Assembly: GCF_900142935.1 (NCBI RefSeq)
Contig: NZ_FSRS01000001.1
Coordinates: 196,001 to 260,000 of the forward strand
DNA: 64,000 nt
Direction of reading: 5' to 3'
Source: Rhodovulum sp. ES.010
Lineage (GTDB): Bacteria > Pseudomonadota > Alphaproteobacteria > Rhodobacterales > Rhodobacteraceae
This document shows positions 45,564-48,506 of this stretch, one piece after another (within the stretch, counting starts at the first letter, position 1; each line of letters starts with the position of its first letter). Below the pieces are notes generated by a model that made no database searches, was not told the DNA's origin, and saw only the letters and a list, made by a program, of their open reading frames with translations. Position numbers and translations under genes: made by a program.

Positions 45564-46133
45564 ATGGAAATGTCGACGCTGACCGGCGGCTTCGCCGATA
45601 CGCCGCGCGAGGCGGCAGTCGCGTTCCGGACCGCGATGGCCGCGATGGCGCGGCCCGGTCGTATTCACGATATCGCTGGTGCAACCCCGCCCGCGCCGCT
45701 GTCGCCCGCCGCCGGCACGCTGCTGCGGGCGCTGGCGGACCCGATGACGCCGGTGCACCTGGCCGGCCGGACCGACACCCGCGCGGTCCGCGACTGGCTG
45801 ACCTTTCACACGGGCGCGCCGCCGGCCGCCCGTGCGGAGGCCGCCTTTGCGGTAGGTTCTTGGGCGGAGCTCCTGCCGCTCGATGCCTACCGTATCGGCG
45901 TGCCCGACTATCCCGACCGCTCGGCGACGCTGATCGTCGAGATGGAGGGGCTCGCCAGTGAGGGCGCGCGGCTGACCGGGCCGGGCATCGAGACCGAGCA
46001 TCGGCTGTCTTTGCCGGACATCGAGGCCTTTCGCGCCAACCGTGCGCGTTTCCCGCTTGGGTTAGATTTCTTTTTCACCGCAGGCACGCGGATGGCCGCG
46101 TTGCCGCGCAGCACGCATGTGGAGGCCGGCTGA
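45564..46133 (+). CDS. phnH: C-P lyase complex subunit PhnH
   Basis: A 189-residue PhnH protein. Characteristic segments are GGFADTPREAAVAFRTAMAAMARPGRIHDI, LLRALADPMTPVHLAG, VRDWLTFHTGAP and LTGPGIETEHRLSLPD. It forms a dimer within the PhnGHIJ complex needed to make the ribosyl phosphonate triphosphate. Its last base overlaps the phnI start (TGATG). Confidence 0.92.
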   Translation: MEMSTLTGGFADTPREAAVAFRTAMAAMARPGRIHDIAGATPPAPLSPAAGTLLRALADPMTPVHLAGRTDTRAVRDWLTFHTGAPPAARAEAAFAVGSWAELLPLDAYRIGVPDYPDRSATLIVEMEGLASEGARLTGPGIETEHRLSLPDIEAFRANRARFPLGLDFFFTAGTRMAALPRSTHVEAG

Positions 46134-47227
46134 TGTATGTCGCGGTGAAAGGTGGCGAACGGGCGATCGACAACGCCCATGACTGGCTTGCAGAGGAGCG
46201 GCGGGGAGATGCCTCCGTCGACGAGTTGAGTGTGGCACAAATCCGCGAGCAGCTTTCGCTGGCGGTCAACCGGGTGATGGCAGAAGGCTCGCTTTACGAC
46301 CCCGATCTCGCCGCGCTGGCAATCAAGCAGGCGCGCGGCGACCTGATCGAGGCGATCTTCCTGATCCGCGCCTATCGCACGACGCTGCCCCGGCTCGGCG
46401 TCTCGGCGCCGGTGGGCACGGGCGCCATGGGCTGCGATCGCCGCATCTCGGCCACCTTCAAGGACGCGCCCGGCGGGCAGGTGCTGGGGCCGACCTTCGA
46501 CTACACGCACCGCCTGCTGGACTTCAAGCTTGCCGCCGAGGGGGCGGTGCCCGAAGCGCCGCGTGCCGAACCAAGCGATGCGCCGATGCCGCGGATCACC
46601 GATTTCCTGGGCCGCGACGGGTTGATCCAAGACGAGCCTGCCACCGATGACACCCCCCCCGACCTGACCCGCGAACCGTTGGAATTCCCCGCCAACCGGG
46701 CGCTTCGCCTGCAGTCGCTCACCCGTGGCGATGAGGGCTTCGTTTTGGGAATGGCCTATTCCACCCAGCGCGGCTATGGCCGCAACCACCCCTTCGTGGG
46801 CGAGTTGCGCGTGGGCACCGTCGCGGTCGAGATGGAAATCCCCGAACTCGGGCTGACGGTCGATATCGGCGAGGTGCAACTGACCGAGTGCGAGACGGTC
46901 AACCAGTTTACCGGGTCAAAGACCGAACCGCCGCAGTTCACGCGCGGCTATGGGCTCACCTTCGGCCATTCCGAGCGCAAGGCGATCTCGATGGCGCTGG
47001 TGGACCGGGCGCTGAGATGGGAGGAACTGGGCGAGGACGACACGGGCGCGCCCGCGCAGGACGCGGAATTCGTGCTGGCCCATGCCGACAACATCCAGGC
47101 CTCGGGCTTTCTGGAGCATATAAAGCTGCCGCACTACGTCGATTTCCAGTCCGAACTGGAACTAGTGCGCAGGTTGCGGGCCGAGGCGCAGGCCACGGAG
47201 CGAGACGGCCAGGAGGCGGCGGAATGA
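46133..47227 (+). CDS. phnI: C-P lyase complex subunit PhnI
   Basis: A 364-residue PhnI. The N-terminus MYVAVKGGERAIDNAHDWLAEERRGD, the block MGCDRRISATFKDAPGGQVLGPTFDYTHRLLDF and the late segment FTRGYGLTFGHSERKAISMALVDRAL are family hallmarks. PhnI is the nucleosidase-type subunit that swaps adenine for phosphonate, helped by PhnGHL. Normally phnJ follows at once; here a 409-base gap with two antisense small genes intervenes. Confidence 0.93.
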   Translation: MYVAVKGGERAIDNAHDWLAEERRGDASVDELSVAQIREQLSLAVNRVMAEGSLYDPDLAALAIKQARGDLIEAIFLIRAYRTTLPRLGVSAPVGTGAMGCDRRISATFKDAPGGQVLGPTFDYTHRLLDFKLAAEGAVPEAPRAEPSDAPMPRITDFLGRDGLIQDEPATDDTPPDLTREPLEFPANRALRLQSLTRGDEGFVLGMAYSTQRGYGRNHPFVGELRVGTVAVEMEIPELGLTVDIGEVQLTECETVNQFTGSKTEPPQFTRGYGLTFGHSERKAISMALVDRALRWEELGEDDTGAPAQDAEFVLAHADNIQASGFLEHIKLPHYVDFQSELELVRRLRAEAQATERDGQEAAE

Positions 47228-47229
47228 CC

Positions 47230-47427
47230 CTAGTCGCCGCCATGGCCGAGGCCGCAGCCGGACCAGTAATCCGGCCCGCCCTCAGTGTCGATGAACCAGC
47301 CGCCCGGCCCGCAGACCCGGTCCGGCGTAACCAGGATCAGCACGTAGCGCAGCAGGAAGGGCATCAGAAGGAACAGCGCCACGAGCCCCCACCAGCTGCC
47401 GACGAGCGTCTGCCAGAGCTCGCCCAT
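47230..47427 (-). CDS. Small membrane protein with PDR-GPGGW motif, antisense in the phn operon
   Basis: A 65-residue protein starting at ATG 47427, only 3 bases after the stop of the related upstream ORF. One long hydrophobic helix (WWGLVALFLLMPFLLRYVLILV, about 12-33) is followed by TPDRVCGPGGWFIDTEGGPDYWSGCGLG, with three glycine-flanked or near-glycine cysteines. PDR-x2-GPGGW-x-IDT is shared with the 47431-47580 protein. It ends 2 bases after the phnI stop on the opposite strand. No known family is recognised. The repeated motif in two adjacent small frames argues strongly that both are genes. It may be a membrane-attached accessory of phosphonate metabolism, or an unrelated insertion. 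Confidence 0.55.
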   Translation of the reverse strand: MGELWQTLVGSWWGLVALFLLMPFLLRYVLILVTPDRVCGPGGWFIDTEGGPDYWSGCGLGHGGD

Positions 47428-47430
47428 CGC

Positions 47431-47580
47431 TCAGTCGCGCGCGGCAGTATCGATCAGCCAGCCTCCAGGGCCGGCGATCCGGTCGGGCAGGGCGAGGATC
47501 ATCGCCTCGCGCAGCACGGCCACGGCCACGAGGCTGAAAGCGATCTGGTCAAAGGTGATGGTCGAGATCCAGTCGAACAC
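47431..47580 (-). CDS. Very small hydrophobic protein, paralog of its neighbour
   Basis: A 49-residue protein from GTG 47580 (GGAG about 8 bases before) to TGA 47431-47433. The sequence begins FDWISTITFDQIAFSLVAVAV and continues to LALPDRIAGPGGWLIDTAARD. Its helix plus PDR-x2-GPGGW-x-IDT end matches the following 65-residue protein at 11 of 14 motif positions, indicating a tandem duplication. The pair forms a minus-strand mini-operon lying between phnI and phnJ, divergent from phnJ with a 56-base gap. Function unknown. Confidence 0.55.
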   Translation of the reverse strand: MFDWISTITFDQIAFSLVAVAVLREAMILALPDRIAGPGGWLIDTAARD

Positions 47581-47636
47581 GGGCCGTCTCCGTCTTTCGT
47601 CATCCCCGAGGTCTCGCTGGTAAATGAGGCGTTAAC

Positions 47637-48506
47637 GTGACCGAAACCGCTCAATACAATTTCGCTTATCTCGACGAGCAGACAAAGCGGATGATCCGCC
47701 GGGCATTGTTGAAGGCGCTGGCCATTCCCGGCTACCAGGTGCCCTTCGCCAGCCGTGAAATGCCGATGCCCTATGGCTGGGGCACCGGCGGCGTGCAGGT
47801 ATCGGCCGCGGTGCTGACGCCGGCCGATACCTTGAAAGTGATCGACCAGGGCGCGGACGATACGACGAACGCGGTCTCGATCCGCAAGTTCTTCGAAAAG
47901 ACCGCCGGGGTGGCGACCACGACGCATACCGCGGAGGCCACGGTGATCCAGACCCGCCACCGAATTCCGGAAGCGCCGCTGACCGAGGAGCAGATCCTCG
48001 TTTACCAGGTGCCGATCCCCGAACCCCTGCGCTTTCTCGAACCGCGCGAGACCGAGACGCGCAAGATGCACGCGCTGGAGGAATACGGCCTGATGCATGT
48101 AAAGCTCTACGAGGACATCGCGCGGCATGGCGCGATCGCCACCGCCTATGCCTACCCTGTCCGGGTCGAGGGGCGTTACGTGATGGATCCCAGCCCGATC
48201 CCGAAATTCGACAATCCCAAGCTGTCGGGCTGTCCCGCGATCCAGCTGTTCGGCGCAGGTCGCGAGCAGCGCATCTACGCCGTGCCGCCCTATACGGAGG
48301 TCGTCAGCCTCGATTTCGAGGACCACCCGTTCGAACCGAGCAAGGCCGACCACGCCTGCGCGCTCTGCGGGGCGACGGACAGCTATCTCGACGAGGTCAT
48401 TGTGGATGACGATGGCGGCCGCATGTTCGTCTGTTCCGACACGGATCATTGCGGCACACGCCGCGAGACGCAGGACGCCGCGTTCGCATCGGAGGGGCGC
48501 GCATGA
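47637..48506 (+). CDS. phnJ: Carbon-phosphorus lyase, radical SAM-type subunit PhnJ
   Basis: A 289-residue catalytic subunit that cleaves the C-P bond with a [4Fe-4S] cluster and S-adenosylmethionine. The cysteine array C-x2-C-x21-C-x5-C starts at C241 (CALCGATDSYLDEV, then CSDTDHC), exactly the E. coli PhnJ numbering. The start is GTG 47637 with GAGG upstream (TETAQYNFAYLDEQTKRMIRR). phnK overlaps its stop. Unlike most operons it is not contiguous with phnI. Confidence 0.95.
   Translation: MTETAQYNFAYLDEQTKRMIRRALLKALAIPGYQVPFASREMPMPYGWGTGGVQVSAAVLTPADTLKVIDQGADDTTNAVSIRKFFEKTAGVATTTHTAEATVIQTRHRIPEAPLTEEQILVYQVPIPEPLRFLEPRETETRKMHALEEYGLMHVKLYEDIARHGAIATAYAYPVRVEGRYVMDPSPIPKFDNPKLSGCPAIQLFGAGREQRIYAVPPYTEVVSLDFEDHPFEPSKADHACALCGATDSYLDEVIVDDDGGRMFVCSDTDHCGTRRETQDAAFASEGRA

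Follow-up and report, generated by a model that had tools for sequence, protein, structure and literature searches.

The C-P lyase operon of Rhodovulum sp. ES.010 carries, on the strand opposite to phnI and phnJ, the gene for a 49-residue microprotein, s49, that is real and conserved in Rhodobacteraceae and scattered over related bacteria. The gene is lodged inside the phn operon, but this location is not its function. The s49 family is under purifying selection, has been duplicated in tandem at this locus, occurs independently of the phosphonate genes, and shares a conserved element upstream of its start codon. We give about even chances to the explanation that s49 is an inner-membrane microprotein of an envelope-stress regulon of the ChvG-ChvI type, and that its gene has a promoter and a regulatory site of its own. 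For Rhodobacteraceae, these observations provide a selected microprotein family that has had no name, a conserved element upstream of it, and a regulon, as yet a candidate, comprising s49 and a pilin-like family.

Organisation of the phnI-phnJ interval

The window referred to here is the stretch of 64,000 nucleotides that was analysed (contig NZ_FSRS01000001.1, positions 196,001 to 260,000), and coordinates are those of the window (Table 1). The 409 bases between the end of phnI and the start of phnJ contain both of the minus-strand frames, of 49 and 65 codons, that a first-pass annotation had placed there. The initiation codon of s65 lies three bases past the s49 termination codon (TGA-GCG-ATG), a spacing suggestive of a single short operon.

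Table 1. Coordinates of the genes and of the upstream element at the s49 locus
Feature	Position	Strand	Description
phnI	46133..47227	+	PF05861 (Pfam); host operon, convergent with s65
s65, 65-residue tandem paralogue	47230..47427	-	ATG start; tail PDRVCGPGGWFIDT and Gly-rich extension
s49, 49-residue microprotein gene	47431..47580	-	GTG start; one short helix and one long hydrophobic helix containing an R-E pair, then the invariant tail PDRIAGPGGWLIDT
s49 conserved upstream element	47614..47641	-	GTCACGTTAACGCCTCATTTACCAGCGA; GYC-N8-GCC direct repeat and flanks; overlaps phnJ start codon
phnJ	47637..48506	+	PF06007 (Pfam); host operon, GTG start under the element, divergent from s49

The premise that phnI and phnJ normally abut holds for some loci and not for others. 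Among 30 phnJ loci, our own included, the gap is shorter than 60 bases in 11, contains the microgene in 8, and measures 190-809 bases without a microgene in 11. Likewise, the description of the frames as ending at a phnJ promoter needs amendment, since the stretch in question also carries the microgene's own conserved element, lying over the phnJ start codon. In four relatives that have no microgene (L233, L237, L229 and L235), the gap of 589-809 bases contains, on the sense strand, a frame of some 200 codons, which we take from its sequence to resemble a HAD-type hydrolase; the phnI-phnJ junction thus accepts various inserts. The gap of L224 holds a sense frame of 188 codons, presumably with a likeness to a small endonuclease-like protein.

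A conserved family under purifying selection

At E<=0.1 the s49 family amounts to 88 database proteins, the window's own counted, and the other 87, from Rhodovulum, Albidovulum/Defluviimonas, Celeribacter, Aliiroseovarius and others, are hypothetical or uncharacterised where they are named at all. With s49 as a single-sequence query, which may miss distant copies, matches at E<=0.01 were obtained in 60 of 394 genomes of the bacterial family, and 59 of the 60 have one match only. Neither s49 nor s65 matches a Pfam or NCBIfam entry at the library cut-offs. Against Pfam, the 89 aligned members gave isolated weak matches to five families, one member each (best E 0.048), and four s49-type members had no match in NCBIfam. 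No relative of s49 was found in the viral contigs searched.

Conservation is concentrated in the near-invariant tail, LPDxxAGPGGWLIDT, which is preceded by one long helix. Seven residues (P32, G37, P38, G40, W41, D44 and T45) are invariant across 89 aligned sequences that include s65. The 56 named loci considered below were gathered by a scan with the pattern AGPGGWLI, so the invariance of this core among them is biased; beyond the core, LPD is kept in all 56, D44 in 52 (N in the other 4) and T45 in 53 (changed in 3), and the codons of the tail vary at synonymous positions. The sole locus outside the Alphaproteobacteria, L119, was rejected as a family member, being an apparent chance match to AGPGGWLI that has no start codon, and was left out of the codon counts.

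Over the 39-codon core of 57 sequences, mean pN is 0.288 and pS 0.606, and in the tail the values are 0.071 and 0.544, respectively. None of the 57 sequences has a stop in the s49 coding frame, as compared with 4 to 57 sequences in the five other frames. One antisense frame likewise has a pS (0.495) above its pN (0.310), yet it is interrupted by stops in 20 of the 57. Synonymous-biased substitution, by which the first-pass annotation had proposed to judge the frames, is therefore found, in the form of frame-specific purifying selection on s49.

The tandem duplicate

The s65 gene is a diverged tandem copy directly adjoining s49. Aligned over 33 residues, s49 and s65 give a z of 17, a score reached by none of 1000 shuffles, and tblastn against the organism's own genome recovers the homology at E=1.5e-6. 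The earlier argument that the shared motif exceeds chance and marks a duplicated small family is thus sustained, as is the description of that family as probably membrane-bound. Divergence between the copies (pN 0.33, pS 0.47) indicates selection on s65 mildly at most. When s65 as such was sought elsewhere, the only candidate was s65 itself. In a relative from the same genus, L066, a 65-codon frame occupies the s65 slot with an identical TGA-N3-ATG junction; its first half is weakly s65-like (z=4.6, 2 of 1000 shuffles) and the tail is absent, suggesting that the duplication may predate this species, with decay elsewhere.

A conserved element upstream of the microgene

An element of about 28 bp, with the consensus G[CT]CA..tTtc.GCCCc.tTT..C.G.cA, starts between 52 and 68 bases ahead of the start codon in 56 upstream regions, representing 55 loci and the window (L115, with a short flank, was left out of the motif search). 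At width 20, the EM motif reaches a log-likelihood of 446, compared with 63-67 in three mononucleotide shuffles, for which fewer starts were used. The exact repeat GYC-N8-GCC is present in 54 of the 56 regions, and of 4384 background windows of 120 bp, 766 also contain some GYC-N8-GCC site; the bare repeat is therefore not rare, and what is rare is its fixed place together with its flanks. The element is present alike in phn, TruA and DUF475 contexts. Eight of the 56 regions score below 11.4, the lowest being the TruA-context loci L085 (3.1), L099 (5.3) and L096 (6.4). The site listed in Table 1, whose first half-site is GTC and not GCC, is the sole place in the window with a motif score above 9.

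A pattern search with the element returned 4 places in the organism's own genome and 2 to 14 per genome in 16 genomes of the genus, for a total of 96 places versus 19 with a reversed control pattern. Downstream sequence was read for 52 of the 96, of which 20 were chosen by eye as motif-like. It includes pilin-like genes, a 33-residue microprotein in three genomes and what we presume from its sequence to be a chemoreceptor-like gene, and many places fall inside coding sequence. The 33-residue protein (FWGG...GT; L126, L144 and L154) is a second hydrophobic microprotein with the same upstream element; a search of 120 genomes of the bacterial family gave no match to it, which with so short a query carries little weight. 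In L158 the element precedes a 69-codon gene whose small hydrophobic product carries a GGGGWFGDCDDGG tail.

The pilin-like genes found downstream of the pattern (GAVTVDWVVLTAA) belong to a family that we take to be Flp-like, and one of the proteins, when compared with Pfam and NCBIfam, had no match. For this family, 49 upstream regions were collected by protein search. The matrix trained on s49 loci scores 11.4 or more in 15 of the 49, versus 0 of 682 control genes, with 34 of the 49 falling below this value; 4 of the 15 came originally from the pattern search, and several of the pilin-like genes stand in tandem within a single genome. De novo motif discovery on the full pilin upstream regions returned only the coding start, and the element emerged on sequence restricted further upstream, where 46 regions yield GCC.aa.T...GCCcCatTc; this is again the s49 element, scoring 259 where a single shuffle gave 81. 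At 10 of the 46 pilin-like sites, the element runs directly into ATAT.

A candidate regulator of s49

The genome encodes, beside pckA, an OmpR-type response regulator (Response_reg and Trans_reg_C domains) that we take, from synteny, to be ChvI. About 110 bases before this putative chvI, a GCC-N8-GCC repeat is found in 6 of 15 genomes of the genus. For ChvI of S. meliloti, the consensus is reported as N-GCC-N8-GCC in a study whose own analysis in C. crescentus derived TTGC-N3-GCAA (PMC9731502). The s49 element agrees with the former in its 11-bp direct-repeat spacing and its half-sites, that consensus being from Sinorhizobium, a member of another order; since these GC-rich genomes contain the two half-sites alone quite often, as the background windows show, the match by itself is weak. 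CenR was also considered and rejected, because its consensus, TGA-N8-TGA (PMC9275681), does not match the element. The literature search, in the parts of the papers available, turned up a CenR consensus for Rhodobacter and no ChvI consensus for Rhodobacteraceae. Among candidate regulators ChvI thus comes first, though unproven, by analogy with another order.

Under the envelope-stress explanation, stress on the cell envelope would activate a response regulator of the ChvI type in the OmpR family, which would bind the GYC-N8-GCC direct repeat starting about 60 bases ahead of the s49 start codon and recruit polymerase, thereby switching on s49. The s49 protein, and here also s65, would then be produced and inserted into the membrane, where s49 probably acts as other small membrane proteins do, with its invariant tail docked on a larger partner there. 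A possible parallel comes from an S. meliloti lipid mutant with apparently active ExoS/ChvI, in which many of the transcripts reported as induced code for small proteins that have a transmembrane helix (PMC8343143). These proteins resemble s49 in being small, in having one helix and in their link to ChvI, which for s49 would consist of the matching site alone; they come from a different order of bacteria, and the likeness drawn here does not derive from sequence.

It is possible, though on balance we think it unlikely, that the same microprotein answers to another regulator at this element, either a different OmpR-family protein or an alternative sigma factor, and to a signal other than envelope stress. 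Conservation in the full 28-bp element extends to positions beyond GCC-N8-GCC, chance alone often produces the bare repeat, and chvI itself has the site in fewer than half of the genomes inspected, all of which would suit another regulator. Against this, the spacing and half-sites fit the reported ChvI consensus (PMC9731502), and that of CenR does not fit (PMC9275681). As for a special sigma factor, the pilin-like sites that reach ATAT would be better suited to an activator positioned over an ordinary -10.

Structure and likely nature of the protein

The best structure model of s49 (pLDDT 95; the other four 88-91) has helices at residues 3-7 and 10-30, followed by a compact tail containing two strands or bridges, both very short. 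A PDB sequence search with s49 gave no match, and a Foldseek-based look returned no chain for the model. The long helix at 10-30 corresponds to the single hydrophobic helix of small membrane regulators, and s49 is probably membrane-bound, the inner membrane being the most likely site of insertion. Bacterial small membrane regulators such as MgtS, AcrZ and KdpF have about 30-50 residues and one membrane helix. Apart from these shared properties, s49 may also resemble them in binding a large partner; we know of no counterpart among them to its invariant PGGW tail.

An invariant tail, a confident model and the occurrence of one match in nearly every matching genome would also be expected if s49 were a small subunit, constitutively present, in some larger complex of the membrane, such as a transporter or respiratory or wall machinery. 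We consider this doubtful, since, with the single-sequence query, so few genomes of the bacterial family match, and since the neighbours of the microgene vary, so that no fixed partner operon is seen.

Relation to the phosphonate genes

Physically, s49 lies inside the C-P lyase operon phnGHIJKL, here and in 8 of the 56 named loci (L063-L066, L101, L106, L111 and L112); it differs from the operon in its strand, in having its own upstream element, and in its independent occurrence. A PhnJ search matched 203 of the 394 genomes of the bacterial family, and phnJ is present in 26 of 53 microgene-bearing genomes (7 of the 60 matching genomes, with E of 1.1e-4 or worse, were dropped), that is, the two occur independently (Fisher p=0.77). 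Neighbouring genes were assigned by codon-based gene calling, which fails for L103. By this measure, the microgene adjoins TruA in 15 of the 56 loci and DUF475 in 7. A further 11 loci (L067, L068, L093, L097, L098, L102, L105, L107, L109, L114 and L116) have at least one phn-cluster-type gene among the nearest four, with no intact phnI or phnJ beside the microgene; these neighbours match DUF1045, Amidohydro_3 and, weakly, AAA in Pfam, and we presume from position that phnM and phnN are among them.

In some relatives, the phn genes have been lost or have decayed while the microgene persists. For instance, the intact microgene of L107 and that of L068 each have next to them a phnJ start that is decayed yet legible (z 14.6 and 7.6); a search of the 47 non-nested loci for decayed phnJ gave no other clear case, with L097 borderline (z 3.1). 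Within the genus, the microgene is nested in 8 of 14 phnJ-bearing genomes, and in G008 it stands apart, next to a phnJ remnant, a separate phnJ elsewhere having a 589-base gap. A gene inside an operon can thus survive the loss of that operon, which cautions against deducing function from nesting.

Because the element here covers the start of phnJ, a side effect on phn expression is possible. Transcription from the element would head away from phnJ and into phnI, and the regulator and polymerase bound there could block or collide with phn transcription, splitting phnGHI from phnJKL under envelope stress. We regard such a role as improbable; if it were true, the nested stress microgene would slow the breakdown of phosphonates in the lineages concerned, with its protein serving the envelope.

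Less probable still, and very unlikely in our view, is that the s49-s65 pair tunes phosphonate metabolism, whether through the peptides or through an antisense RNA covering phnI-phnJ. The nesting in named loci and in genomes of the genus would favour such tuning, as would the position of the element, where a bound regulator could hinder phnJ. The first-pass annotation had suggested both forms. Tuning as such is not supported, given the independence from phnJ, the 48 of 56 loci that lie outside phnI-phnJ, and the intact microgenes beside decayed phnJ. Antisense RNA across the operon, for the same reason of location, cannot be the general function of the family, and survives as a possible local side effect. 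Rfam contained no family at the gathering score, with two sub-threshold matches, both on the plus strand (E 0.2 and 0.49), and no paper on phosphonate together with small membrane proteins of Rhodobacteraceae came up in a literature search.

That s49 is the hydrophobic toxin of a type I-like system, as its small size, its hydrophobicity and its antisense position in phn loci might suggest, is hardly credible given that conservation is strongest in the tail and not in the helix, and that matching genomes have, with one exception, a single match.

A CorA-like transporter gene lies between phnK and phnL, inside the phn operon, in L101, L106 and L111, and a gene of this kind also neighbours the microgene in several phn-less loci.
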